DNA from: an uncultured Planctomycetaceae bacterium
GTDB lineage: Bacteria > Planctomycetota > Planctomycetia > Pirellulales > UBA1268
NCBI GenBank assembly: GCA_903917235.1
Contig: CAIWZS010000181.1
Location: 1 to 37,362 of the forward strand
Direction: 5' to 3'
Length of the DNA: 37,362 nucleotides
The notes below the pieces were generated by a model, which had not been told where the DNA came from, searched no databases, and saw only the letters and a list, made by a program, of their open reading frames with translations. Of the stretch, positions 7,220 to 37,362 are shown in pieces. Every line of letters begins with the position of its first letter. The stretch's first letter is position 1. The translations under genes were made by a program, and so were the position numbers.

Positions 7220-7885
7220 TCACCGTTCCAGTCGGTCGCTCGTGATCTTCATCACCTCGCCCGGATTGCCCTTCACCACGGACCGCTCGGCGGTGTCCCG
7301 TGTCACGGCCGTGGCCATGCCGACGTAGGTGTGGGCGCCGAGCGTGATACCGTCGCGCAGGGTGGCGTTCACGCCGATGAACGAGTTGCGTCCCACGACG
7401 CAGTGGCCCGAGATCACGACGTGCGAGGTGACGAAGGCATGATCCTCGATCGTGGTGTGGTGGCCGACGTGATTGCCGCTCCAGAGCACGACATTGGAGC
7501 CGATCCGGCAGAAGGGCTGCAGCGTGTTGTCCTCGAGGACGAAGCAGTTGTCGCCGATCTCGAGTCCGGGGAAGCGGGTCGCCTTCGAACTGACGTAGGA
7601 GACGAGCTCGTAGCCGGCGCCGCGGAGCAGGCCGTAAATCCGTTCACGGAGCGTGTTCATCCGGTAGTGCGACGCCGGCGCGAACGCGAGGCACGCATCC
7701 GGCGGATACTGCCGCGACAGTTCGTCGAGCGGCACGACGGGCAGCCCCTCGAAGCGGCCCGACTCCGGCACGTAGTCGCGCTCCACGGTGAAGGCGACGA
7801 CCTCGTGCGGCGAGTCGTGCGTGAGGTAGAAGCGTGCGAGCGACGCGAAGTCGCTCGTGCCGAACACGACGACATCCGCCATCAT
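7220..7885 (-). CDS. NeuD/PglD-like sugar O/N-acyltransferase with left-handed beta-helix
   Basis: 221 residues. The N-terminal Rossmann-like sugar-nucleotide-binding subdomain starts MADVVVFGTSDFASLARFY and contains LPVVPLDEL. From about residue 107 the hexapeptide repeats of a left-handed beta-helix run (GLEIGDNCFVLEDNTLQPF, then IEDHAFVTSHVVISGHCVVG). His residues in NHVGHHTTIED (138-147) match the position of the catalytic His of PglD/PerB. The family transfers acetyl or formyl groups to amino or hydroxyl groups of nucleotide sugars. The ATG at 7885 overlaps the methyltransferase stop as ATGA, with GGGAG upstream, so translation is probably coupled. Together with gmd and the aminotransferase it suggests N-acylation of a 4-amino-sugar. 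Confidence 0.88.
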   Translation of the reverse strand: MMADVVVFGTSDFASLARFYLTHDSPHEVVAFTVERDYVPESGRFEGLPVVPLDELSRQYPPDACLAFAPASHYRMNTLRERIYGLLRGAGYELVSYVSSKATRFPGLEIGDNCFVLEDNTLQPFCRIGSNVVLWSGNHVGHHTTIEDHAFVTSHVVISGHCVVGRNSFIGVNATLRDGITLGAHTYVGMATAVTRDTAERSVVKGNPGEVMKITSDRLER

Positions 7886-8529
7886 TCCGGCTCCCGGTAG
7901 ACGTAGGTCGTGTATTCCCAGAGCCCGTAGTCGGCGCGGAGCACGACGTGCCGGCTCACCTCCGCCTTGAGGAACGCCAGCAGCGTGTCGCAGGGGAGGT
8001 GGAAGAGGTCGTCGCGCTGCCAGTCGACGTGCCAGCTCATGACGTTGAACGCCAGTCCGATCCGGGCGCGCGAGTGGAGGGCGGTGATCATCCGCCGTGT
8101 GTGCTCCCACATCGCGTCCCACGACAGCGACCGCTTCTCGGTGAAGACCCCGTTCGCGACGACGAAGTCGGCGGTGGGCAGGGCGTCCGGTTCGCGAAGG
8201 ACGTCGACGCAGCGGAAGTCGAGATCGGGAAACTTCGCGCGGCAGAGGTCGATGAACCGCGGCGACAGGTCGGCACCGAGATACCGCACGTCGCCCGGAC
8301 CGTGCCGGCGCAGATGATCGACGAGATGGCCCGCGCCGCAGCCGAAATCGAGGAGCGAGGCGTCGGCCGGACGCGGGCGCCGGTCGAGAAGGCCGAGCAT
8401 GACGCGGTAGCGGGTCGTCGCGTCGTCGGCATCGGGCCAGTCCACCCCGCGGTGGGTGTCGCCGTGGGCGGCGAGGCACGCCTCGTAGTGCTCGACGAGC
8501 TCGAGGTAGGAGGGGCGGCAGGCGGTCAT
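7882..8529 (-). CDS. SAM-dependent class I methyltransferase
   Basis: 215 residues. Motif I is LLDFGCGAGHLVDHL (about 59-73), followed by YLGADLSPRFIDLCRAKFP. The acidic motif and FVVANGVFTEK follow in the expected order. The fold matches Methyltransf_11/25 type enzymes; the substrate is unknown. A strong GAGGAG lies 5 nt before ATG 8529. It sits 8 bp after the GNAT-like gene and overlaps the acyltransferase by 4 bp, so the three are co-translated. Its place in the operon suggests O- or N-methylation of a sugar or glycan end. Confidence 0.88.
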   Translation of the reverse strand: MTACRPSYLELVEHYEACLAAHGDTHRGVDWPDADDATTRYRVMLGLLDRRPRPADASLLDFGCGAGHLVDHLRRHGPGDVRYLGADLSPRFIDLCRAKFPDLDFRCVDVLREPDALPTADFVVANGVFTEKRSLSWDAMWEHTRRMITALHSRARIGLAFNVMSWHVDWQRDDLFHLPCDTLLAFLKAEVSRHVVLRADYGLWEYTTYVYREPE

Positions 8530-8537
8530 GGCGCTCC

Positions 8538-9515
8538 TCAGGCGGCCCGGTAGGCGGGAAAGAAGGAGGCGCGCGCCGCCTCGGCGGGTCCGCCCAGCCG
8601 GGCATACGCGACGCGATCGAGAATGCGGCCGCAGAGGCGCACCGGCGCGGTGCCGGTGGCCCAGCCGCGCTTGAACCGCTCGAGTCCGGCCGAGGCGGCG
8701 TGCGTGCCGGCACCCGCGCCGAGTCCGACGCGGCGGACGCCTCGCGCCGCGAGCGTCCCGACGACCTCGGCGAACATCGCATACGACGCGCGCACCCGGT
8801 ACCCGGTCTCGTCGTACGCGCCGAGGTGGTAGTAGGCGCGGTCGTCGTGCACCGCCCAGAGCGTCATGCCGACGACGGCGGCCTCGTGGACGGCCCGCAC
8901 GGCGAGCATGCCGGGGATCGCGAGCTGCGCGCGGAGCGACTCGGCGGGGAACGCGGCGGGACCGCTGATCGCGTGACGCTCGACGAGGTGCCCGTAGAGC
9001 CGCACCCAGTCGTCGGCCCAGCCGACGGCGCGATCGAGCACCTCCACCGTCGTCTCACGTCGGCCGAGGCGCACGTTGCGGCGATGGTGCTCGTCGAGCG
9101 GCGGCGGGCCGGCGGCGAGATCGATCACGTAGTGCGACTTGTATGGCCGGCAGAGGTCGGGAAAGGCGTTGCCGAGTGTGGCGTCGTCGATCTCGGCGAG
9201 CGGGTCGGTGACGGTCGTCACGCTCACGACGCCCGCGTTGCGATCGTCGGCCAGCGACGCGAGATCGTCGGGAAGCCGGTCCCACGCGTGACAGACGAGA
9301 AATGGATAGGGGCCAGCCGCATCGACGCGGCCGGAGTCGCCGATCGGGCGGACCAGGCACCATGCGCCGGACCGCTCGAGCGCGCGCGGCGTGCCGACAT
9401 GCCCGAGGGTCGCCGGGTACGCGGCACCCGCATAGCCTGCGTGCTGGCCGGTGCCACAGGCACCCCCGGCAGACCCCCACATGGCTCCGCGCACACCGGT
9501 TGCCGAATCGCCCAT
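8538..9515 (-). CDS. GNAT-fold acyltransferase (FemAB-like / Acetyltransf_6 type)
   Basis: 325 residues. The C-terminal half carries a GNAT/FemAB-like core: DEHHRRNVRLGRRE, then the acyl-CoA-region strand GMLAVRAVHEAAVVGMTLWAVHDDRAYYHLGAY, and the end GLERFKRGWATG. The last pattern, LxxFKxxWGxx, recurs at the end of FemAB-like GNAT proteins in polysaccharide loci. The first 60 residues are Gly/Ala-rich and less informative. The gene starts 1 bp after the stop of the upstream GT2, so the start relies on coupling rather than a Shine-Dalgarno. It probably acylates a sugar or attaches an amino acid in the cytoplasm; the donor is unknown. Confidence 0.75.
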   Translation of the reverse strand: MGDSATGVRGAMWGSAGGACGTGQHAGYAGAAYPATLGHVGTPRALERSGAWCLVRPIGDSGRVDAAGPYPFLVCHAWDRLPDDLASLADDRNAGVVSVTTVTDPLAEIDDATLGNAFPDLCRPYKSHYVIDLAAGPPPLDEHHRRNVRLGRRETTVEVLDRAVGWADDWVRLYGHLVERHAISGPAAFPAESLRAQLAIPGMLAVRAVHEAAVVGMTLWAVHDDRAYYHLGAYDETGYRVRASYAMFAEVVGTLAARGVRRVGLGAGAGTHAASAGLERFKRGWATGTAPVRLCGRILDRVAYARLGGPAEAARASFFPAYRAA

Positions 9516-9516
9516 G

Positions 9517-11388
9517 TCAGGCGGCCCGCCTTTCCCCGCCGGCGCCCCGCGGCCGGCGCGGGGGGGCGATGACCGTGGGTGCGGGGTGTGGCAGCGGACC
9601 GGCCACGAGGGAGGCCAACGCGACCCGCTTCCGTTCGCGCCACACCCGTGCGAGGCCGTCCGGCACGAACTCCGTGGGCGAGAGGTAGGGATGGAAGAAG
9701 TCGTCGCGGGCGAGGCTCGGCGCCCAGCGGGAGATGAAGAGGTCGCGCGCCGTTCCGCCGACGCGACGCGTCCGGCTCTCCCAGTGCACCGCCCGCACCC
9801 GCGGCGCGTAGACGACCTTCCAGCCGGCGCGCCGGAGCCGCAGGCAGAGATCGATGTCGTTGTAGTCGTTCGGAAAACGCTCGTCGAAGCCGCCGAGCTG
9901 CACGAACGCGGAGCGGCGCACGAGCACGCAGGCCGCCGTCACCGCCGAGAACTCCTGCAGCGATGCGACCCGGCCGAGGTAGCCCGGGTCGTCCGCCGGC
10001 CTGCCACGATGAAGGTGCAGGCACATCCGCTTGCGATCGAGGATCGCGCCGCCGTGCTGGAGATCGCCATCCGGATACCGCAGCCGTGCGCCGACCGCGG
10101 CGATCCTCGGGTCGAGCTCCGTGACCGCGACCAGGTCCGCCAGCCAGCCGGGCGAGAAGTCGGAGACGTCGTTGTTGAGGAAGAGGAGCCACGAGCCCTC
10201 GGTCGCCTTCACGGCGGCGTTGTTCATCGCGGCGAAGTTGAACGGGCCGGCGTAGGGGAACACGCGGAGGCGGGAGGCGGCCGACTCCCGCGCGAGGTAG
10301 TCGAGCAGGGCCGGCTCGTCGGACGCGTGGTCGATGACGGTCACGTCGTACGCGTCGTACCCCGCCTGCGCCCGCGCCGACTCGACGCACGTGGCCACGA
10401 GGTCGGCGCCGTTCTTCGTCGGAATGATGATCGACACCCGCGGGTTGTGGACCGCACGCGGGGCGACGTCGTGCACGCCCGGGCAGGCGTCGAGTGGACG
10501 CACGACCGCATCGATGCCACGCCGCGCGAGGGCGGCGGTGGCCATGGCGGCTCGGTCAGCCGCGATGGCGTGCTCGGCTGCGGCCGGACGCACGGGCAGC
10601 GCATTGAGCGGTTCGGCCACGTGGGCGACGTCGGCGAGCGTGAGGCCGCCGAGCGCCTCCAGCGCGATGGCGTAGAGCGCCCCGGGGCCGGTGGCCGGCT
10701 GCGGCTCCGTCGCCAGCCGCTCCACCGCGGCTGCCAGCACCTGCCGCTCGTAGACGACCATGGGCGCCACGACATCCCGCGCGAGCAGGTGGATCGGCGA
10801 GAAGCGCGGCTTCAGCTGCAGCTGCGTCGCGCCGGCGTCCCGCGTCGTGTCGTCGATCTCGACGTGGTCGGCGTACAGCGCCTGCGGACCCGGATGGCGG
10901 GCCCAGGTGGATGCGATCCAGAGCACGGCGTCGTCGCAGGGCACGGCCGCGGCATCCCAGACCGCGATCGGCGCGCCGCGTCCGGCGGCGAGCACCGCCC
11001 GCAGGCCGCGCGCGAGCGAGCCTCCCATGGTGTCGAGGTCGAGAAGGGTCGTGTCGGCAGCCTCGGCGACGCCGTCGAACTGGGCGAGCACCGCACGGGG
11101 TGCCAGCAGCGTGACGTGCGCGCAGGGGAGCGCCTGATCGAAGAGCGCGTCGAGGCAGCGGCGACTGGCCCGCGCCGCCTCCGGCGAGGTTTCGAGGCAC
11201 ACGGCCACCGCCTCGGGACGCGGCAGCGGGGCGGCACGCCGGGCCAGCGCGGCCAGATCGGTGCGGCCGGCGACCGCGACGGTGCGGCCGGTGCGCAGGA
11301 TGCGCAGCGCACTGCCCCGCAGGCGGCGCAGCGCGCGTTCGGCGCGCTTGAGCGGCGAGTCGGGCTTTCCGCGGGATGATCCTGCCAT
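9517..11388 (-). CDS. Large two-part glycosyltransferase, C-terminal GT2 domain
   Basis: 623 residues. Residues about 318-545 form a canonical GT2 catalytic domain: VSIIIPTKNGADLVATCVES, VIDHASDEPA, the NND metal motif near 405, LQHGGAILD, and DYNDIDLCLRLRRAGW near the acceptor site. Residues 60-300 look like a decayed or divergent first domain, with ALYADHVEIDD resembling the DXD strand of O-antigen GT2 proteins of this architecture. ATG 11388 has GGAG 7 nt upstream and lies 10 bp after the aminotransferase stop. It is a cytoplasmic or membrane-face enzyme that probably elongates the glycan. Sugar specificity is unknown. Confidence 0.88.
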   Translation of the reverse strand: MAGSSRGKPDSPLKRAERALRRLRGSALRILRTGRTVAVAGRTDLAALARRAAPLPRPEAVAVCLETSPEAARASRRCLDALFDQALPCAHVTLLAPRAVLAQFDGVAEAADTTLLDLDTMGGSLARGLRAVLAAGRGAPIAVWDAAAVPCDDAVLWIASTWARHPGPQALYADHVEIDDTTRDAGATQLQLKPRFSPIHLLARDVVAPMVVYERQVLAAAVERLATEPQPATGPGALYAIALEALGGLTLADVAHVAEPLNALPVRPAAAEHAIAADRAAMATAALARRGIDAVVRPLDACPGVHDVAPRAVHNPRVSIIIPTKNGADLVATCVESARAQAGYDAYDVTVIDHASDEPALLDYLARESAASRLRVFPYAGPFNFAAMNNAAVKATEGSWLLFLNNDVSDFSPGWLADLVAVTELDPRIAAVGARLRYPDGDLQHGGAILDRKRMCLHLHRGRPADDPGYLGRVASLQEFSAVTAACVLVRRSAFVQLGGFDERFPNDYNDIDLCLRLRRAGWKVVYAPRVRAVHWESRTRRVGGTARDLFISRWAPSLARDDFFHPYLSPTEFVPDGLARVWRERKRVALASLVAGPLPHPAPTVIAPPRRPRGAGGERRAA

Positions 11389-27820: not shown

Positions 27821-29698
27821 TCAGCCGAAGACGCCGAGCAGCCGGGTGACCTCGACGGCGAGAATGATGCCTACGCCCACGAGGGATTCGCCGGCGATGA
27901 GCCCGCTGGAGACCGGCACGATCGTGCGCTCGGCGGCCTGCGGGGCGCGCCGGGCCAGGATGAAGGCGACGAGCGCTCCGGCGAACATCGCGAATGAATT
28001 GAAGGCCGGGATGACGCCGGCGATCCCCAGTCCGGTCGTGGAGGGGATCCACGGACGCAGCCGCTTGGGCGCGAAGGTCTCCAGAAGCGTGAGCACGACG
28101 CCGATGAGCGCCCCCACGAGCATCGCCTCCCGGGCTCCGGCCGGCAGACTGTCGAGACCCTTGGCGAGCAGGCGGGCAACACCCTCCCAGACCTTGGCCG
28201 ACGGCGCGGGCAGGGCCGCGGTGCCGAGCCGCTCGGGATGGGCCTGGACGACGAAGAGGTAGGCAGGCACGGAGACGAGCGTGCCCGCGACCACGCCGTA
28301 TAGCTGGGAGAGCGTCTGCTTCCGCGGGTTGCCCCCCAGCAGGTAGCCGCTCTTGAGGTCGGTGAGCAGGTCGGCGGCGTGGGACGCCGCCCCCGAGGTG
28401 ATCGACGCGGTCATCAGGTTCGTGGTGATGTTCGAGGGGGCGATCGCACCGTAGACCAGCTGCGTGATCTTCCCCATGGCGCCGATCGGGGTGATGTCGG
28501 TCTCTCCGGTGGCACGCGCCGCGACGATCGACAGGAGGAAGGTGAGGAGCACGGCCACCACCCCCATCCACCACGTGATCCCGAAGAGGATCTCGCCGAG
28601 GACGACGCAGGCCGTGCCGAAGACGAGCGTCCCGGTCGCGAACCACCAGCCGGGCACCTCGACCCGGGCGAGTGGATCGTCCATAGCGTCGGCACGACGG
28701 CCCACGAGCGTGGCGAGGCCGCCGAAGGCGCGGACGACCGTGCGCCACTTGAGCGCGAAGGACAGGAGGCCGGACGTCACCATCATCGCGGTCGCGGGCC
28801 AGAGCACCCACGAGACGATGCCTCGATAGCCCGGCTCGGCGATGCCCCGGGAGACGAGGATCGGGCCGATGATCCCGTAGCAGATGATGCCGCCGACGAG
28901 CATCGAGGCGGCGACGCGCAGCCCCATGATGGCGCCGGCCGCGACCATGATGAGCGAGCCCTCGATCCCGATCGTGAATCGCGTGAGCAGGTCGCGGCCG
29001 AGGGCGGTGGGCAGGAAGGGAATTTCAGCCGGGAAGGCGTACGGTGCCAGCCACTTCACCTGGGCGAAGAGATCGCGCCAGAGCGCGACGAGGCCGCCGA
29101 CGATCCCGGCCGTGAAGAGCGCGCGGCCCTTGGCGACCGCCTCCGTGCCCGCGGTGTGCATGCTGCGCAGCGTCTCGGCCGTCGCGATGCCGGTGGGGAA
29201 GGGAAGCTGGTCGATGTTGATGAGCTGCCGCTTGAGCGGGATCGCCATGAAGACGCCGAGCATCGACAGCGCGCCGAGCCAGAGCATGATTTCCCACCAC
29301 GCCATGAGCCGGCCCGTCGTCAGGTAGAGGGCCGGCAGCGCCGAGACCAGGCCGGCGCTCGACATGTAGCCGGCCGCGCTCGCCGCGCTCGACATCGTGT
29401 AGTTCTCGAGGATCGTGAACGGCCGGTCGCGCCAGGCCGGCACGAGCGGCTCGAGGAAGCGGAAGACGGCGTAGGCGATGATGCACGCGGTGATCGTGAC
29501 GCCGAGACCCCAGCCGGTCTTGAGGCCGACGTAGAGGTTCGAGATCGACATCACGCCGCCGATGAGCATGCCGGTGACGACCGCCCGGGGCGTCAGTTGC
29601 ACCGCGTCGTCGCCGGCGTACACGTGCTCGAGCCACCAACGGGCGGCCGCCCGTTCGTCGTCAGGCGGCGGTGCCGCGGGAATCGTGTCGTCGCGCAT
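27821..29698 (-). CDS. OPT-family oligopeptide/metal-chelate transporter
   Basis: 625 residues with about 14-16 hydrophobic segments. Recognisable OPT stretches include VVTGMLIGGVMSISNLYVGLKTGWGLGV near the N-terminus, QLPFPTGIATAETL, ATGETDITPIGAMGKITQLVYG, and DLKSGYLLGGNPRKQ. Members are secondary transporters that import peptides or metal chelates with protons. The ATG at 29698 has no strong Shine-Dalgarno, but it gives the expected soluble N-terminal lead of about 35 residues. The frame is open upstream through repeats, which I reject as coding. It lies 177 bp upstream of the sulfotransferase gene on the same strand; a functional link is not evident. Confidence 0.92.
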   Translation of the reverse strand: MRDDTIPAAPPPDDERAAARWWLEHVYAGDDAVQLTPRAVVTGMLIGGVMSISNLYVGLKTGWGLGVTITACIIAYAVFRFLEPLVPAWRDRPFTILENYTMSSAASAAGYMSSAGLVSALPALYLTTGRLMAWWEIMLWLGALSMLGVFMAIPLKRQLINIDQLPFPTGIATAETLRSMHTAGTEAVAKGRALFTAGIVGGLVALWRDLFAQVKWLAPYAFPAEIPFLPTALGRDLLTRFTIGIEGSLIMVAAGAIMGLRVAASMLVGGIICYGIIGPILVSRGIAEPGYRGIVSWVLWPATAMMVTSGLLSFALKWRTVVRAFGGLATLVGRRADAMDDPLARVEVPGWWFATGTLVFGTACVVLGEILFGITWWMGVVAVLLTFLLSIVAARATGETDITPIGAMGKITQLVYGAIAPSNITTNLMTASITSGAASHAADLLTDLKSGYLLGGNPRKQTLSQLYGVVAGTLVSVPAYLFVVQAHPERLGTAALPAPSAKVWEGVARLLAKGLDSLPAGAREAMLVGALIGVVLTLLETFAPKRLRPWIPSTTGLGIAGVIPAFNSFAMFAGALVAFILARRAPQAAERTIVPVSSGLIAGESLVGVGIILAVEVTRLLGVFG

Positions 29699-29755
29699 GG
29701 TGGGGAGCGTACCCGAAGTCGCCCGCCGCGGCGCCTCATGCAAGGAGGCCGCATT

Positions 29756-29779
29756 CGCACGCCTGGAGGCGTGCGCCAC
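29756..29779 (-). repeat. Dispersed palindromic repeat, inverted copy
   Basis: Exact 24-bp reverse complement of the repeats at 942-965 and 1050-1073, nearly 29 kb away. The match with the 1050 copy extends about 10 bp on one side with one mismatch. It lies 58 bp upstream of the OPT start. Confidence 0.85.
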
Positions 29780-29811
29780 GAAAAGAGCGGACGTCGCTCC
29801 CCTGCCGTGAC

Positions 29812-29840
29812 CCGCCGCAGGCCCGCAGGGCCGCCGCGGC
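29812..29840 (+). repeat. 29-bp direct repeat, copy A
   Basis: Starts CCGCCGCAGGCCCGCAGGGC and is identical to 29885-29913. The GCCCGCAGGGC centre is itself partly palindromic. Confidence 0.85.
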
Positions 29841-29884
29841 GCGCTGACGAAGAATTTCTCGACGGAGGTCGTCCTGCCGTCCAA

Positions 29885-29913
29885 CCGCCGCAGGCCCGCA
29901 GGGCCGCCGCGGC
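29885..29913 (+). repeat. 29-bp direct repeat, copy B
   Basis: Identical to copy A, 73 bp downstream. Its end forms the left arm of the first hairpin of the cluster that follows. Confidence 0.85.
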
Positions 29914-30025
29914 TCAGCCAGCCGCGGAGCGCACACGGCCGCCCGGAAGGCGGCCGGCCCGGCGTGGGCACCCTTGGCGTGCCCACGTCGGGCCAAGCTG
30001 CCGGGGCCATGGATGGCCCGGCAGC
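29907..30025 (-). terminator. Cluster of four successive hairpins downstream of the Tyr-rich protein gene
   Basis: Stems: CCGCGGCT/AGCCGCGG (29907-29927, 8 bp), CGGCCGCC/GGCGGCCG (29936-29956, 8 bp), CGTGGGCAC/GTGCCCACG (29963-29987, 9 bp) and GCTGCCGGGGCCAT/ATGGCCCGGCAGC (29997-30025, 13 bp with one bulge). They follow the stop codon at 30033 on the minus strand. No T-runs are present. The 334-bp gap 29699-30032 holds these, the 29-bp repeats and the inverted palindromic repeat, and no gene. Confidence 0.6.
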
Positions 30026-30032
30026 GCTCTCG

Positions 30033-30371
30033 TCAGAACACGTCGAGATGGAAGTGGTGGCCCTGGTGGTAGCGACGCGATTGCGGGTACTCGTTGTGCC
30101 ACTGCCGGTTGTAGACCGGTATCCGCATCTCCTGGGGATAGCGGTAGTAAAGATCGTTCGCCGACTGCATGTAGCCGTCGGCGTAGAAGTTCTGCGCGTA
30201 CCAGACGTAGGGATAGTGGTAGAGCCGGTTCCAGTCGTGGGTGTTGTACGAATAGCCCCACTGGTAGCCGTAGGCCTGCTGCCCCGCGTGGGGCGTCTGG
30301 GCCCTGGCATCGACGGTGGTCAGCCAGACGGCGACGCCGACGGCGCCGACGGCGAAAAGGTGCCGCATCAT
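30033..30371 (-). CDS. Small exported Tyr/His-rich protein, conserved-looking, unknown function
   Basis: 112 residues. The signal peptide MMRHLFAVGAVGVAVWLTTV ends at DARA|Q after residue 24. The mature part of 88 residues is rich in Tyr, His, Trp and Gln: YNTHDWNRLYHYPYVWYAQNF, DLYYRYPQEMRIPVYNRQWHN, and the end YHQGHHFHLDVF. There are no cysteines and no membrane helix after the signal. The pattern resembles small planctomycete exported proteins I have seen described only as hypothetical; this is from memory, not a search. ATG 30371 has a G-rich run upstream. It is followed by the hairpin cluster, so it is probably a single-gene unit. Confidence 0.82.
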   Translation of the reverse strand: MMRHLFAVGAVGVAVWLTTVDARAQTPHAGQQAYGYQWGYSYNTHDWNRLYHYPYVWYAQNFYADGYMQSANDLYYRYPQEMRIPVYNRQWHNEYPQSRRYHQGHHFHLDVF

Positions 30372-30479
30372 GAAAGGTCCCCCCGGAAAGACGATCCCCG
30401 GAAGTCATCGGCAGCCGGCACGACCCGTCTTCACGGAAAAAAGTGACGCGACCCGAGGGGTTGGGCAGGCCGGCGGGGA

Positions 30480-30516
30480 CCGCCGCCCACACCCGTGTCG
30501 GCATCGCGGGCGGCGG
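30480..30516 (-). terminator. Hairpin just after the MBL-fold gene
   Basis: CCGCCGCCC (30480-30488) and GGGCGGCGG (30508-30516) pair over 9 bp around a 19-nt loop, directly after the stop at 30519 on the minus strand. A T-run on that strand lies about 40 nt further on, too far for a classical terminator. Confidence 0.4.
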
Positions 30517-30518
30517 GC

Positions 30519-31319
30519 TCAGGCGGGCTGCGGCTTCTGCCCGGGCAGGCGTCCCTCGGCGAGTTCCCGGTCCCACTCTTCGATGAGGGGCCAGTGGGTC
30601 GCACAGGTGCCGAAGTCCGCGAGCGTGAGGTACCCACGGAGGCGGTCGGTCGTGCGGCGGAGGAGACCGTCGTCCTTGCGGAAGATCGGCCCGTGGCTCG
30701 GCAGGAGCCACTGGACGTCACTCGCCGCGATGCGTTCGAGCGAGCGGATGAACTGCTGGATGTCGCTGCCGTGATGCGCGTCGATCGCGCCGACCGATCC
30801 GTCGCGGTAGATGTTGTCGCCCGAGAGCAGGAGGTCGTCGAGCCGGAACGCGAGCTGGCTGTCGGTGTGGCCGGGCGTGTGCCAGACCTCGAGGCGGCGG
30901 GAGCCGATCTCGATCACGTCGCCGTCGGCGACGGTGCGGTCGACCGTGACGGGCGGCATCTCGAGATGCACGTTCTGGGCGGCGATCTCGGCGAACGTCT
31001 TGACGCGGTCCCCCGACTCGAGCGCGTCGACGGCCTTGGGATGGGCGATGACCGGTGCCTTCAGGACCGCCTTCGCCCGCGCGAGGCCCTGGATGTGATC
31101 GACGTCCGCGTGCGTGGCGACGAGCCCCCGGCACTGGGAGAGCGGGAAGTCGAGCTGACGGATCATCTCGACGATCTCGTCCACGCTCTCGTCGTAGCCG
31201 ATGTCGATGAGCACCCAATCGCTGTCGTCGTAGACGAGGTACACGTTGCAGCCGATCCGCCACCCGGCCTGATGATTCATCTCGATCACACCGGGAAAGA
31301 CCGGACGCCGTGCCAGCAT
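30519..31319 (-). CDS. Metallo-beta-lactamase-fold hydrolase with HxDxDH variant motif
   Basis: 266 residues. The fold's ordered motifs are present: VYLVYDDSDWVLIDIG, then VATHADVDHIQGL (H70, D72, D74, H75), LEVWHTPGHTDSQLAF, LLLSGDNIY and LLPSHGP. The usual HxHxDH is HxDxDH here, so the second metal-binding His is an Asp. The glyoxalase-II-like order is otherwise intact. It is a cytoplasmic hydrolase of unknown substrate; thioesters, phosphoesters and lactones are all handled by this superfamily. ATG 31319 is supported by the first strand starting within 20 residues. It is divergent from the GTPase operon across a 226-bp region with a dyad element. Confidence 0.88.
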   Translation of the reverse strand: MLARRPVFPGVIEMNHQAGWRIGCNVYLVYDDSDWVLIDIGYDESVDEIVEMIRQLDFPLSQCRGLVATHADVDHIQGLARAKAVLKAPVIAHPKAVDALESGDRVKTFAEIAAQNVHLEMPPVTVDRTVADGDVIEIGSRRLEVWHTPGHTDSQLAFRLDDLLLSGDNIYRDGSVGAIDAHHGSDIQQFIRSLERIAASDVQWLLPSHGPIFRKDDGLLRRTTDRLRGYLTLADFGTCATHWPLIEEWDRELAEGRLPGQKPQPA

Positions 31320-31395
31320 GGCGGAGAGCTCTGCTGAAGGGGAGGGGCTGAACGGGAGGAGCCGAGGTGGCGGAACTGGAATGGAAGGAAGCGAT

Positions 31396-31545: not shown

Positions 31546-33432
31546 GTGGCAACGCGAGATCGCCCGGTGAACGATCCAGCGGGCGCGTCGCCGGAGACCG
31601 TGACCGGCATGGCGGTGACGGTGCGCGCGCTGTGCGACGTGGTGGAGGCGATCGCGCCGCTCGGCGCGTCACTCGGCGCGCCGGCCCCTGAGGAGATGCC
31701 CTGGCACGGCGCGCTCTTCGGGACGCTCCAGGCACAGGCCGCCCGCGGGCCGCTCGTCGTGGCGGCGGTGTGCGGCGGCACGAACACGGGCAAGAGCCTC
31801 GTCGCCAACGCGCTCGTGGGTGCGGCCATGAGCCGTTCGGTGGCCGAGGCGGCCCGCACGCGGCACCCCGTCGCGAGCCTGCCCGCCGGGGTGGCCGCCA
31901 CCGCGGATCTCGGCGCGCTCTTCCCCGGCTTCGTACCGGTCGCGTGGCGCAGCGACGAGGATGCGCTCGACCCCGCCGCCGAGGATCGGATCATCTGGCG
32001 CGAGGACGGCTCCGGGCGGCAGCCTGCCCGGCTCGTCATCGTCGATACGCCCGACATCGACGGCACGCTGCGCGAGAACTGGCACCGCGCGGAGCTCGTG
32101 CGCGACGCGGCCGACGTGATCGTGGCGGTGCTCACGCAGCAGAAGTACAACGATGCCGCCGTTCGCGAGTTCTTCGCGCGGGCCGCGGCCGCGGGTCGGA
32201 CGGTGCTCATCGTGTTCAACATGATCGACTGGCCCGCCCAGCGTCCGCGGATCGGCGGGTGGCTCGCCACGTTCACGGCGGAGACCGGGGTCGTGCCACT
32301 GGCGGTGTACGCCGTCCCGCACGATCAGGCCGCGGCCGCCGCGGGCCGCGTCCCGTTCCACGCGCTTCCCGAGCTGACCGGGACGGCCGGCGGCGCCGAC
32401 ACGACTCACGAAGGGGATCCGGGCCCCGCCGAGCGGCTCGCGGGCTGCGATTTCGACCGCATCAAGCGTCGTGCCGTCGCGGGTGCATGGGAGGTCGTGC
32501 TCGACCGCCGGGACGGCATGGGAACGTGGCTCGACGCGATCGACCACGCCGCCGGGGTCTGGCGCGAGACGGCCACATTCCTCGAGCGGGAGAGTCGCGT
32601 GCGGGTCGATCTCCCGCCCGCGCCGAGCGACATCGTGTGGAACGAGATCTGGTCGTGGCTCGAGCCCCGTCGCTCGCGCTTCGACCTCGCCGTCAGCCGA
32701 CTCTATCGCGTCGCCGGCACCGGGGTCGCTTGGGCCGCGCGGCAGGTCGGGCTGGGTCGGTCCTCCACCGAGCGTCGCGAGGATTTCACCGCCCTCGAGA
32801 TCGCGGCCCTCAAGCAGGCGCTCACCGACTTCGTCTCACGGCTCGAGGACGCCTGCCGCCACGACCCGCGCCTCGAGCAGCTGCTGGGTCCGCGGCTCGC
32901 GTCGGCCGATCGCGCCGCGTGGTACGCCGACCTCGAGCGGCGACATCGAGCGCTTCCATTGGTGTCGGAGGACTACCGCACGTTCGTGAAGGACCAGCTC
33001 GATCGGTACTCCGAGGACAACCCGGGACTCGTCGGCTGGATCGTCACGGCCCTCAATGCCGGCGCGGTGGCCCGGCCGGCGCTCACGGTGGGGCTCGGGC
33101 TCGCGGGCGCCGCGGTCGTGCCCGCAGCCGCGGCGACGGCCGGAGGTCTCACCACGCTCGTCTATCACGTCGGCGACGTCGTCGTCGGAACAGCGGCCAC
33201 GCTCGTGGGCGAGGGCGCCCTCGGGCTCACGGCGGCGGGGCTCGCGCCGCTCGTCGAGCAGCTCTTCGTGGGCTGGTCCGCTGAACGCAGCCGGGTGCTC
33301 GCCGAGACGCTCCACGATGTGGTGCTCGGCGACCGGCTGGACGAGATCGACCGGCTGGCGACGGCGGCGAGCCGGCCGGAGCTCGCGCGCGCACGGCAGC
33401 TCCTCGACGCCGTCGCGGCGGAGGGCGCCTGA
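31546..33432 (+). CDS. Large membrane-associated P-loop GTPase, first of tandem pair
   Basis: 628 residues from GTG 31546, which has GGGAG 7 nt upstream; ATG 31609 is an alternative start 21 codons in. The P-loop is GGTNTGKS (77-84). The Walker-B/G3-like strand is VIVDTPDIDGT (D167), and the G4-like element is FNMID, a departure from NKxD. A clear G2 Thr motif is not visible. After the G domain come long charged helices (about 290-490), then a Gly/Ala-rich hydrophobic stretch (about 496-570) that looks like two membrane hairpins, then a helical tail. The layout recalls bacterial dynamin-like proteins more than Era/Der. The next GTPase starts 1 bp after its stop. Confidence 0.78.
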   Translation: MATRDRPVNDPAGASPETVTGMAVTVRALCDVVEAIAPLGASLGAPAPEEMPWHGALFGTLQAQAARGPLVVAAVCGGTNTGKSLVANALVGAAMSRSVAEAARTRHPVASLPAGVAATADLGALFPGFVPVAWRSDEDALDPAAEDRIIWREDGSGRQPARLVIVDTPDIDGTLRENWHRAELVRDAADVIVAVLTQQKYNDAAVREFFARAAAAGRTVLIVFNMIDWPAQRPRIGGWLATFTAETGVVPLAVYAVPHDQAAAAAGRVPFHALPELTGTAGGADTTHEGDPGPAERLAGCDFDRIKRRAVAGAWEVVLDRRDGMGTWLDAIDHAAGVWRETATFLERESRVRVDLPPAPSDIVWNEIWSWLEPRRSRFDLAVSRLYRVAGTGVAWAARQVGLGRSSTERREDFTALEIAALKQALTDFVSRLEDACRHDPRLEQLLGPRLASADRAAWYADLERRHRALPLVSEDYRTFVKDQLDRYSEDNPGLVGWIVTALNAGAVARPALTVGLGLAGAAVVPAAAATAGGLTTLVYHVGDVVVGTAATLVGEGALGLTAAGLAPLVEQLFVGWSAERSRVLAETLHDVVLGDRLDEIDRLATAASRPELARARQLLDAVAAEGA

Positions 33433-33433
33433 C

Positions 33434-35326
33434 ATGTCGGCCGGTGCAGACGAGCGCGCGTGGGACGGGGGTGGCGGGCTCGCCGCGGACACGCAGCCGG
33501 ATTTCAGCGATTTCGACGACCTCGTCGCGGCCCTGGACCGCTGGAGCGGGTCGCTCCGCGGCTGGGGGCCGGCGGCGGCGATTCACGCCGAGTGGAGCCG
33601 AGTCGGTCCGCGGCTCGACCGCGCGCGTCGCGAGCTCGCGCGGGTGCTCGTCGTGGGTGTCATCGGTGGCACCGGCACGGGCAAGAGCACGCTCGTCAAC
33701 GCGCTGGCGGGCGCCGATGTCAGCGACGCGGGCGACGTCGCGCGGCCGACGACGACCGCACCCGTCGTGGTGGCGGGCCCGGATGTCGACGTCTCGTGGC
33801 TGCCGCTCGACGCCCTGCGGGCTCGCGTCGTGCGCAGCGACGCGCCGGCCGTGGCGAACATCGTGCTCGTCGACTGCCCGGATCCGGACACGCAGCCGCG
33901 GGAGGATCGTCCGTCCACCGGCGCGCCGGAGCGTCCCGGCGAGGAGCGCCCGCGGCCGAGCGCCGACAACCGGAATCGCGACCTGCTCGAGCAGGTGCTG
34001 CCGGCGTGCGACGTGCTGCTCGTCGTCGCCACCGCGCAGAAGTACAAATCCTGGATCGTCGCCCGCGAGGTGGCGGCGTTCGCGCCGGGCAGGCCGCTCT
34101 TCTTCGTGCAGACCCAGGCCTCGCGAGATGCCGACATCCGGGCCGACTGGCGGCGGGAACTCGAGTCGCAGGGCTTCCGCGTGCCGCGCATCTTCCGGCT
34201 GGACGGCGTCGAGGCCGGGCGCCGCGCCGCGGCGGGGCTCGCCCCCGAGCCCGGCTTCGCCGAGCTCGTCACCGCGATCGACGAGGAGCTCGCGGGCCGC
34301 GCCGCACGGCGCGTGAGACGCACCGGCGCGATCGATCTGGCCGCGTGGTTCGTGCAGGAGTCGCGAGACCGCCTCACGCCACTCGTCGAACCGCTTCGCG
34401 CGTTCGTCGAGGGCGTCACGACAGAGCGCACGCGCCTCGAGGGACTGCTGGCGGCGGCCGTCGCTGGAAAGCTCCGCAGACAGCGGCACGGCTGGCAGAG
34501 GCTCGTGGCGTCGGAGGTCGTCGAGCGGTGGCAGGGAGGGCCGTTCGCGACGTTCGTGCACGCCGTCGACGGCGTGTCGTCACTCTGGGGCAGGGCGCGT
34601 CTGGGGGGCGGACTCGTGGGACGCCTCCTCGCGGGTGGCCGCACTGACGCGAAGCCGGATGGATCACCCGGGTGGCAGGCCGTGGAGGAGATCGGCCTGT
34701 CGGAGTCGGAGGTGGAGCAGTCGCGGAGCATTCTCGCCGGCCTCGCGGCCCGCGCACGCATCGGCGATCCACTCATCGGACGCGTGCGGCTCGACGACTC
34801 CCAGGTGCAGTCGCTCGCCGCCACGCTGCTCGATCGGGCGGGTCGTTGGCTGGGGACGGGTGTCGAGCGGATGGTGGACGACCGGCGCGGTCGCCTCGGC
34901 GGCGCCGCCGTTCACTGGACGTTCGAGGTGCTCTTTGCGTCGCTGCTCGTCGCGGTCCTCGCGCGTGCCGGCTGGGGCTTCTTCTACGGGCACCTGTGGC
35001 TCGGACGGCCGGCCGAGGGCGCCGGCTTCCTGCAGCAGGCGTTCGTCTGGCTCCTGCTCTGGGGGCTCGCGCTGCGGTGGGCGGTGTTCCGTCTCGTGCG
35101 TCTCGGGCTGGAGCGCGACATCGCGGGGCTCGTGGGGGGCGTGCCTGCCGCCCGACTCGTCGACCCGCTGCTCGCCGATTACAGTGAGGCCGGTCGACGG
35201 GTGACGGACTACCTCGCGGAGGGGCGTCGCCTCGACCAGACGACCACGCGGCTCGCGGAGAGGCTCGACGAGCCGACGGCGGCACTCGGGCGTCTCCGTC
35301 CGCCGACGTCGGGGGCGGCGCCGTGA
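33434..35326 (+). CDS. Large membrane-associated P-loop GTPase, second of tandem pair
   Basis: 630 residues. The P-loop is GGTGTGKST (78-86). A dynamin/Era-like G2 segment ARPTTTAPVV (103-112) and the G3-like VLVDCPDPDTQ (145-155) follow. The G4 position reads FVQTQASRD, with no NKxD. Residues 240-490 are rich in charged helices. Two membrane spans follow: WTFEVLFASLLVAVLARAG (about 495-513) and FVWLLLWGLALRWAVF (about 535-550), then a helical tail. It shares the plan of the preceding gene but has clearly different sequence, so the two could form a heteromer. Its stop overlaps the GTG of the ABC transporter gene as GTGA, a sign of translational coupling. Confidence 0.8.
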   Translation: MSAGADERAWDGGGGLAADTQPDFSDFDDLVAALDRWSGSLRGWGPAAAIHAEWSRVGPRLDRARRELARVLVVGVIGGTGTGKSTLVNALAGADVSDAGDVARPTTTAPVVVAGPDVDVSWLPLDALRARVVRSDAPAVANIVLVDCPDPDTQPREDRPSTGAPERPGEERPRPSADNRNRDLLEQVLPACDVLLVVATAQKYKSWIVAREVAAFAPGRPLFFVQTQASRDADIRADWRRELESQGFRVPRIFRLDGVEAGRRAAAGLAPEPGFAELVTAIDEELAGRAARRVRRTGAIDLAAWFVQESRDRLTPLVEPLRAFVEGVTTERTRLEGLLAAAVAGKLRRQRHGWQRLVASEVVERWQGGPFATFVHAVDGVSSLWGRARLGGGLVGRLLAGGRTDAKPDGSPGWQAVEEIGLSESEVEQSRSILAGLAARARIGDPLIGRVRLDDSQVQSLAATLLDRAGRWLGTGVERMVDDRRGRLGGAAVHWTFEVLFASLLVAVLARAGWGFFYGHLWLGRPAEGAGFLQQAFVWLLLWGLALRWAVFRLVRLGLERDIAGLVGGVPAARLVDPLLADYSEAGRRVTDYLAEGRRLDQTTTRLAERLDEPTAALGRLRPPTSGAAP

Positions 35327-36861
35327 GGCGGACCCGGATCGGTCGCGCGGAGGGGTTCGTGCGTGCGGCGCAGTGCCTGCTGACGGTCGGCGTCATGGCG
35401 ATCTCCGCCACGACCGGGGCGTGGGCCCGCGAGCTCGACGCGGTGCGGGCGCGTGGCGAGCTCGTCTGGGCGGCCGATCAGGAGGGGGGCGGTCCGCACG
35501 TCTTCCTCGATCCGGCGCAGCCGGGGCTGGTCAAAGGGTTCGAAGTGGAGTTCGCGGAGCTGCTCGCGCAGGAGCTCGGCGTGCGGGCCCGGTTTCAGCA
35601 GGGGCAGTGGGATCGCCTGCCCCTGCTCCTCGAGACCTCGGCGGACTGCGTCATCAACGGCTACGAGCTGTTGCCGGAACGCCAGCGCGACTATCTCTGC
35701 TCGCGCCCCTACTTCGCGTACGCGCTGCAGCTGGTCGGTCGGCGGGGCGAGGCGCCTGCCGCGTTCGCGGACCTCCAGCTGCCGGGGCCCGCGGGCGATT
35801 GGCGGGTGGGCGTCCTCAGTGGCTCGGCCGCCGAGGTCGTGCTGCGGTCCCGTGCCGAACTCGCCGTCGAGGTGATCGGCTACGAGGGGACGACCGATTC
35901 ATTGCAACAGCTCGAGACCCGCGTGCTCGACGCGGTGGTGATGGACGACTGCATCTTCGCGTTCTACGCCGATCGGTTCGCCCACCTGCGGGCCGTCGAT
36001 CGGCCGTTCGCCGGTGGTGTCTACACGGTGCTCACGTCCCGGGGCACGCCGCAGCTCGCGGCCGCGATCGATGCCGCAATCGGACGGCTCATCGCCGACG
36101 GCCGGCTGAAAACGCTCTACGATCGCTGGGACCTCGCCGGGCGGCAGCAGATGCTCCTGTTGCGCGACGCCGCGGAGGTCCCGGCGGCACGCCGCGCGGG
36201 CTTCATGGAGCTCGTCCGGCAGACCGCCCCGCTCCTCGCGCGATCGGCCGGCATGACCGCGTTCCTCTCCTGCGCGTCGTTCCCGCTGGCCGTCGCGATC
36301 GGGCTCGCCGTGGCGGTCGGGCGGCAGTACGGCCCCGCGGTGCTGCGCCCGCTGCTGTCGGGGTACGTCGAGATTCTGCGGGGCACGCCCCTCATGCTCC
36401 AGCTCTACGCGATCTTTTTCCTGCTGCCGCAGGTGGGGCTCGCGCTGCCGGCGCTCGTGGCGGCGATCCTCGGCCTGGCGCTCAACTATTCGGCGTACGA
36501 GTCGGAGATCTACCGGGCGGGGCTCAAGGCGGTGCCCCCCGGGCAGTTCGAGGCGGCGCTGTCGCTCGGCCTCTCCCGCTGGCAGGCGCTGCGCCACGTG
36601 ATCGTGCCGCAGGCGATGCGGATCGTCATGCCGCCGGTGACGAGCGACTTCATCGCCCTCTTCAAGGACACGAGCGTCTGCTCGGCGATCACCGTCGTCG
36701 AGCTCACGAAGCGCTACAGCGTGCTCGCGCTCTCGACCGGACGCATCGTGGAGCTCGCGCTCGTCACCGCGCTCTTGTACCTGGCGATGAGCTGGCCGCT
36801 GGCGACGCTCTCACGCTGGTTCGAACGCCGCCTCGAGCGGCCGGCGGGTGCGACCGGTTGA
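35323..36861 (+). CDS. Fused periplasmic solute-binding protein and permease of a polar amino acid ABC importer
   Basis: 512 residues. A signal peptide covers residues 1-36 (LLTVGVMAISATTGAWA|R). The solute-binding domain (about 37-285) contains GELVWAADQEGG, LVKGFEVEFAELLAQELG and RLKTLYDRWDLA, as in the GlnH/HisJ family. A HisM/GlnP-type permease follows: helices from FLSCASFPLAVAIGLAVAV, EILRGTPLMLQLYAIFFLLP, and the EAA loop YESEIYRAGLKAVPPGQFEAA (from about 392) that docks the ATPase. The GTG start overlaps the GTPase stop by 4 bp. The ATPase gene follows 68 bp later. It probably imports amino acids; specificity is unknown. Fusions of this kind are known in other bacteria. Confidence 0.92.
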   Translation: MRRTRIGRAEGFVRAAQCLLTVGVMAISATTGAWARELDAVRARGELVWAADQEGGGPHVFLDPAQPGLVKGFEVEFAELLAQELGVRARFQQGQWDRLPLLLETSADCVINGYELLPERQRDYLCSRPYFAYALQLVGRRGEAPAAFADLQLPGPAGDWRVGVLSGSAAEVVLRSRAELAVEVIGYEGTTDSLQQLETRVLDAVVMDDCIFAFYADRFAHLRAVDRPFAGGVYTVLTSRGTPQLAAAIDAAIGRLIADGRLKTLYDRWDLAGRQQMLLLRDAAEVPAARRAGFMELVRQTAPLLARSAGMTAFLSCASFPLAVAIGLAVAVGRQYGPAVLRPLLSGYVEILRGTPLMLQLYAIFFLLPQVGLALPALVAAILGLALNYSAYESEIYRAGLKAVPPGQFEAALSLGLSRWQALRHVIVPQAMRIVMPPVTSDFIALFKDTSVCSAITVVELTKRYSVLALSTGRIVELALVTALLYLAMSWPLATLSRWFERRLERPAGATG

Positions 36862-36929
36862 GGGATGCCGCCGGCGCGTGCCGGTGGGCCGTCGCGGCAG
36901 GCTCGGCGGACGGATCGGAAAGGCAGCGC

Positions 36930-37362
36930 ATGATCGCGGTCAGCGGAGTCTCGAAGTCGTGGCCCAGCGGCCCCGCGCTCGACGGCGTGAGCCTCACCTG
37001 CACCGAGGGCGAGGTGCTCGCGCTCGTGGGACCGTCGGGCAGCGGCAAGAGCACGCTCCTGCGGTGCCTCAACGGCCTCGAGACGTTCGATCAAGGCAGC
37101 GTGACGATCGCGGGCCACCGCCTCGATCCCGGCCCCAACGTCGCCTCCGCGCTCGAGGCGCTGCGGCGGGACGTCGGCATGGTGTTCCAGCAGTTCCACC
37201 TCTTTCCCCACCTCTCGGTCCTCGACAACGTCGCGCTCGCACCCCGGCTGGTGCGACGGACGCCCCGCGCCGAGGCCCACACCCGGGGGCGGGCGCTGCT
37301 CGACCGGGTGGGCCTTGGCGCGTTCGCGACGGCACGGCCCGCCCGGCTCTCCGGCGGCCAGC
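36930..37362 (+). CDS. ABC transporter ATPase, polar amino acid type, 3'-truncated
   Basis: 144 codons are visible before the window ends. Walker A is GPSGSGKST (34-42). The Q-loop stretch GMVFQQFHLFPHLSVLDNV is typical of the GlnQ/HisP family, and the window stops inside the signature motif LSGGQ. ATG 36930 has AAAGG 6 nt upstream. It is the partner of the fused binding-protein/permease gene 68 bp upstream and powers import by ATP hydrolysis at the cytoplasmic face. The Walker B and H-loop lie beyond the edge. Confidence 0.95.
   Translation, partial: MIAVSGVSKSWPSGPALDGVSLTCTEGEVLALVGPSGSGKSTLLRCLNGLETFDQGSVTIAGHRLDPGPNVASALEALRRDVGMVFQQFHLFPHLSVLDNVALAPRLVRRTPRAEAHTRGRALLDRVGLGAFATARPARLSGGQ

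Follow-up and report, generated by a model that had tools for sequence, protein, structure and literature searches.

The window, by which we mean the whole stretch of DNA that was analysed (37,362 nt), carries at its 3' end two genes for different large GTPases, here called GTPase A and GTPase B, followed by the genes of an ABC importer. The features of this region, with the evidence on which each is based, are as follows.

31546..33432, + strand: GTPase A, predicted to be dynamin-like, first gene of the pair (translation, orthologues, Pfam, AF2 model, PDB structural matches)
33028..33270, + strand: hydrophobic region of GTPase A (residues ~495-575), candidate membrane paddle (hydropathy, place in the chain)
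33434..35326, + strand: GTPase B, predicted to be dynamin-like, second gene of the pair (translation, orthologues, Pfam, AF2 model, PDB structural matches)
34928..35098, + strand: two hydrophobic helices of GTPase B (residues 499-555), candidate membrane insertion (hydropathy, model)
35323..36861, + strand: fused substrate-binding protein and permease (SBP-permease) of a polar-amino-acid-type ABC importer (Pfam SBP_bac_3, BPD_transp_1)
36930..37362, + strand: ABC ATPase of the GlnQ/TcyN type, incomplete at the contig end (Pfam ABC_tran; partial matches to NCBIfam GlnQ/TcyN-type models)

Two start codons are candidates for GTPase A, GTG at 31546 and GTG at 31567; family alignments favour 31567, either being possible, and the stop codon occupies 33430-33432. 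GTPase B begins with ATG at 33434, head to tail with A and separated from it by exactly 1 nt. Each protein is ~630 aa long. Both reading frames are real, with nearly full-length orthologues of 30-97% identity in dozens of genomes. A and B themselves are only weakly alike, and their similarity (31% over 167 aa, E 0.013) does not extend beyond the G domain. The end of GTPase B overlaps the SBP-permease gene by the four nucleotides GTGA (35323-35326), and the ATPase gene comes next, with its ATG at 36930 and with contig and window both ending at 37362. An earlier reading of the locus from its sequence alone (the sequence-only reading) had described this arrangement correctly: two different large GTPases placed head to tail with a 1-bp gap, each with a P-loop, and the second overlapping a binding-protein/permease fusion that is followed by an ATPase. 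The P-loops are GGTNTGKS at residues 77-84 of A and GGTGTGKST at residues 78-86 of B. Ectoine-, cystine- and glutamine-type permease models match the SBP-permease below their cut-offs. Scans for promoters and terminators found nothing.

Predicted fold, membrane regions and nucleotide-binding motifs

Pfam assigns both proteins no more than general GTPase domains. GTPase A scored 25.8 bits with MMR_HSR1, above the cut-off, and 19.3 bits with Dynamin_N, below it. GTPase B reached 29.1 bits with Dynamin_N (cut-off 27 bits) over a partial profile, and MMR_HSR1 was also just above its cut-off. None of the NCBIfam models fits either GTPase, and sequence and profile searches of the PDB with A and B returned no dynamin-like protein (DLP); all that they matched was the P-loop of proteins such as Der, Era and ABC proteins. 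The remaining Dynamin_N matches in the same genome were rejected as further DLPs, as their sequences resemble MnmE, Der and IF2.

The dynamin superfamily is defined by fold and not by its G3 and G4 motifs. AlphaFold2 models, built from 61 aligned A sequences and 44 aligned B sequences, had mean pLDDT values of 86.1 (A) and 85.3 (B). When these models were searched against the PDB with Foldseek, the first match of both was the Nostoc protein BDLP (2j69; E 1.2e-8 for A and 3.1e-10 for B), and the next matches of both were IniA, mitofusins, SynDLP, OPA1 and the Cj-DLP1/2 pair (5owv/5oxf). The matches to BDLP, IniA and mitofusin span most of the A and B chains. With VIA-align, A was superposed on Fzo1 (9kfd; Z 22.2, 328 aa, rmsd 5.0) and on Mfn1 (5yew; Z 20.5), and B on Mfn1 (5gnt; Z 20.0, 302 aa, rmsd 4.0), on mycobacterial IniA (6j72, 6j73; Z 17.4), a bacterial DLP and a strong structural match of B, and on the Cj-DLP chain 5owv_B (Z 16.4); many unrelated GTPases also reach Z 13-17 on the G domain. 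Over the whole chain the TM-scores of both models are low (0.25-0.3), which makes the trunk assignment softer than that of the G domain and neck; hinge differences between DLP states could be the source of these values.

Judged by the models, A and B are dynamin-like proteins of the BDLP/mitofusin type, with a predicted large G domain followed by neck and trunk helical bundles. The label "dynamin-like" that the sequence-only reading had given both proteins is thus supported by a predicted fold that matches BDLP, mitofusin, Fzo1, IniA and Cj-DLP1/2, and so is the long helical region that it had noticed in each: structure prediction, its own proposed check, yielded BDLP-like bundles in both (pLDDT 86 and 85). 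Nostoc BDLP1 (2j69/2j68) is the closest likeness by Foldseek, and the mitofusins and Fzo1 are the closest by VIA-align. These proteins differ from A and B in sequence (~10-16% identity), in having another G3 motif, and in being one protein as opposed to two divergent partners.

The membrane segments that had been proposed for both proteins are clear by hydropathy in B and weaker in A. In B, two peaks of 1.92 and 1.71 (19-residue window) cover residues 499-517 and 537-555, the family mean is high there too, and the model places helices at 491-522 and 530-556. The corresponding stretch of A (residues ~495-575) is rich in Gly and Ala, peaks in hydropathy at residues 512-530, and has a model confidence below 50 over residues 521-557. 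Both regions lie in the C-terminal third of their proteins, and that of A would sit where BDLP has its paddle.

Motifs were counted in the alignments that served for modelling. All 61 A sequences carry a P-loop of the type GGTN[TI]GK[ST], with the variant GGANMGKS in 2, and all 44 B sequences carry GG[TS]GTGKST; both types satisfy the consensus GxxxxGK[ST]. Further motifs at this locus are the G3 sequence DTPDID, the signature LTQQKYNDAAV and NMID in A, and the switch I sequence RPTT, the G3 sequence DCPDPDT and the signature TAQKYKS in B. The usual G3 motif is DxPG, with Gly at the fourth position. DxPG is absent here and is replaced by DxPD, the fourth position being Asp in 61/61 A and 44/44 B sequences; D167, P169 and D170 of A are invariant. 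Because of this exchange the pair is set apart as variant DLPs. Divergent pairs from other planctomycete classes have DxPDx[DN] in most of their proteins, and many have a looser version of the KY motif. In A this second signature, which follows G3, reads T[QP]QKYND; its form in B is T[AS]QKY[RK]S, or TQQKY in order-level relatives. The G4 motif also departs from the usual [NT]KxD. In A it is mostly FN[MQ]xD, with Asn invariant, Lys absent and Asp frequent, and in B it is degenerate, mostly FVQTHAS within the same family and QTHAD in order-level relatives. Given the Asp in place of the G3 Gly and the degenerate G4 of B, nucleotide hydrolysis by the pair cannot be assumed.

GTPases A and B are retained or lost as a pair across Planctomycetia

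We surveyed 198 Planctomycetia genomes of at least 95% completeness, with the genome of the window (93%) listed as well. GTPase A was found in 99/198 and GTPase B in 98/198, both together in 98 (Fisher p ~1e-56, a value that ignores kinship), such that 98/99 A-bearing genomes have B and 98/98 B-bearing genomes have A. The sole A-only genome (G275, family f21) is a 200-contig assembly. An A-then-B tandem is present in 55/98 genomes. In the other 43 the genes lie within 16 kb of each other (4 genomes), on different contigs (30) or 0.17-4.8 Mb apart on one contig (9). Among 60 relatives, full-strength A and full-strength B were found in the identical 46 genomes. Both genes were read at 44 loci, with start codons chosen by script, and at 38 of these the A-B junction overlaps or spans at most 5 nt.

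A and B are therefore kept or lost together even when unlinked, and it is this co-retention after separation, stronger evidence than adjacency, that argues for a joint function. The idea that paired bacterial DLPs occur at this locus has held up well, in the form of a real and conserved pair. Its distribution is uneven: the pair is present in every listed genome of family f21, with B lacking in G275 only, and nearly every sampled genome of family f15 lacks both genes, as do several other families of this order. One f15 genome (G380) has A and B in tandem (C261:3155-6841), the other listed f15 genomes having neither; late loss in the rest of the family and transfer are both possible explanations.

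Outside the class, other planctomycetes carry divergent tandem pairs with the same A-then-B order wherever both members were found. A tree of 58 G domains splits in two: one group (99/94) unites all A proteins with six divergent first genes, and the second genes all belong to the other group. Five first genes on long branches lack a settled place. First- and second-gene labels change twice on this tree, against a mean of 19.6 for shuffled labels. The pair is older than the split of the planctomycete classes, and A and B are probably paralogues that diverged anciently.

A search with a divergent A sequence found one actinomycete, Nonomuraea gerenzanensis, with tandem GTPases.

L225:5857-7713 and 7710-9602 (NZ_LT559118.1): GTPases of Nonomuraea gerenzanensis, matched by planctomycete profiles

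Like A and B, these are two GTPases of ~620 aa; their genes overlap by 4 nt, their G3 sequences are DAPDIDSV and DLPDHDSI, and they carry RYADEV/QKYADAA motifs. Unlike A and B they belong to an actinomycete and sit on long branches whose position in the tree is not settled. The pair type thus extends beyond Planctomycetota. The two genes are unannotated in NZ_LT559118.1 and apparently adjoin a two-component system; the replicon is filed as a plasmid, yet at 11.85 Mb it is chromosome-sized.

Proposed function of the pair and its link to the importer

Most bacterial DLPs are encoded as side-by-side pairs in operons (PMC6104087). The closest likeness that has been tested by experiment is the Campylobacter jejuni pair Cj-DLP1/Cj-DLP2 (5owv, 5oxf). 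These two form a 2:2 tetramer that tethers liposomes, and it is through assembly that GTPase activity and lipid binding are switched on (PMC6104087). As with A and B, two different DLP genes lie side by side and encode proteins with a G domain and helical bundles, and both models have these proteins among their best structural matches. Unlike A and B, Cj-DLP1 carries an assembly domain of 119 aa at its N-terminus, for which the A and B models have no counterpart. Compared with Cj-DLP1/2, the DxPD form of G3 and the retention of both genes when unlinked are features of the planctomycete pair, which is described here from genes and models. Pairing of bacterial DLPs as such is already known; what is new is a planctomycete DLP pair, its co-retention when unlinked and its DxPD switch. 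A search of the open-access literature found no paper on dynamin-like proteins in planctomycetes.

We consider it probable that A and B form a heterotypic DLP pair that acts in membrane tethering or remodelling, with the importer as a lineage-specific operon partner that is no part of the GTPase machine. A and B would co-assemble, and their hydrophobic regions would insert into the cytoplasmic membrane. GTP binding would then bring the G domains together as dimers, and the resulting conformational change could tether, bend or fuse membranes. The most plausible target would be the folded cytoplasmic membrane of planctomycetes, a phylum without FtsZ (PMC10632474, PMC4164004) and with a developed endomembrane system (PMC10632474). 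The genome of the window gave no match to FtsZ in a search whose control was positive in 13/14 genomes. The pair may bear on how planctomycetes give their inner membrane its deep folds and how they divide in the absence of FtsZ. Co-retained in half of the sampled Planctomycetia and present throughout f21, A and B are direct candidates for a knock-out in a cultured member.

A more specific version is tentative and on balance unlikely: here the pair would act on the invaginated cytoplasmic membrane, or on the bud neck, and would tether, fold or cut it by means of a modified DxPD switch, one partner perhaps regulating the other. Distinctly unlikely is a dedicated role in FtsZ-independent budding division, where A and B would constrict or sever the neck in place of FtsZ and its helpers. 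The lack of FtsZ in the phylum and in this genome would suit such a role, as would the presence of the pair throughout f21 and the precedent of Streptomyces DynA/DynB, which support septation; a role in division has been reported for these actinobacterial DLPs (PMC8748795). DynA/DynB resemble A and B in being a functional bacterial DLP pair; they differ in working with FtsZ, which planctomycetes lack. Against it speaks the lack of both genes in nearly every f15 genome sampled and in several other families of the order, and, if those families are also FtsZ-less, the pair is not a universal planctomycete division factor.

It is very unlikely that A and B serve in phage defence, or that they are a stress or envelope-repair pair of the kind proposed for DynA of Bacillus subtilis and for mycobacterial IniA. 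The occurrence of the pair is patchy within Pirellulales and its fold resembles that of IniA, and A has a weak PADLOC match to LeoA (E 5.9e-6, residues 161-229 only). Against this, A and B group in a largely congruent way in the tree and are near-universal in f21, which points to a cellular role that has been kept for long. None of the neighbours of the pair was recognised as a defence gene, the defence libraries having been applied to A and B alone. We rejected a defence system, for which the partial LeoA match is the sole support, and also a mobile element, A having no phage match and B no plasmid match.

The proposal of the sequence-only reading, by which the GTPases would steer membrane insertion, assembly or gating of the adjacent importer as one functional system, is highly improbable. 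Within the family of the window's own genome (f1), the importer genes lie 3' of B in most loci, B and the SBP-permease gene overlap by 4 nt in 26/34, and the SBP-permease is present in 26/37 genomes (the GTPases in 35/37). GTPases and importer look like a genuine operon there, and the conserved overlap makes their co-expression likely. Outside f1 an SBP-permease gene adjoins A or B at 0 of 83 loci. Transporter and GTPases also dissociate both ways: two genomes (G048, 100% complete, and G053, 97%) of the same order have the transporter without the GTPases, and four (G011, G013, G026, G035) have A and B without an SBP-permease at E<=1e-60. In two more (G051, G055) the GTPases and the SBP-permease are on different contigs. 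A transporter-GTPase module as a general rule was rejected on these grounds. Of the co-occurrence that the sequence-only reading had proposed to survey, the A/B pair is conserved and the importer link holds within f1; outside f1 it does not. The functional tie to a polar amino acid importer is unsupported as a general claim. By the sequence-only reading's own test the linkage would be incidental if GTPase homologs usually occurred without the ABC genes, and at the 83 loci outside f1 they occur without an adjacent SBP-permease gene. Control of importer assembly or gating is unsupported. The DLP pair stands as a sound observation, and the transporter link, attractive as it is, has no such support.

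Unrelated genes in a fixed order also flank the pair on both sides in f1 and likewise weigh against control of the importer; they encode a metallo-beta-lactamase-fold protein, an OPT transporter, and DUF1559, PabA-like and MoeA-like proteins. In the window, divergently transcribed genes at 27821-31337 (a metallo-beta-lactamase-fold protein, a small conserved protein and an OPT-type transporter) keep their order across the family, which suggests that these neighbours and the pair make up an old syntenic block. No third conserved partner of the pair was found among the 83 loci outside f1, where the neighbours that recur most are generic ABC ATPases and, at several loci, a ketosynthase gene upstream of A. 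In six loci of order-level relatives (L165, L167, L171, L172, L179, L184) a beta-ketoacyl-synthase-like gene (FabF-type) lies directly upstream of A, and B is located elsewhere. The fused SBP-permeases of G048 and G053 are 52-56% identical to the one described here and provide a useful control for transporter function.
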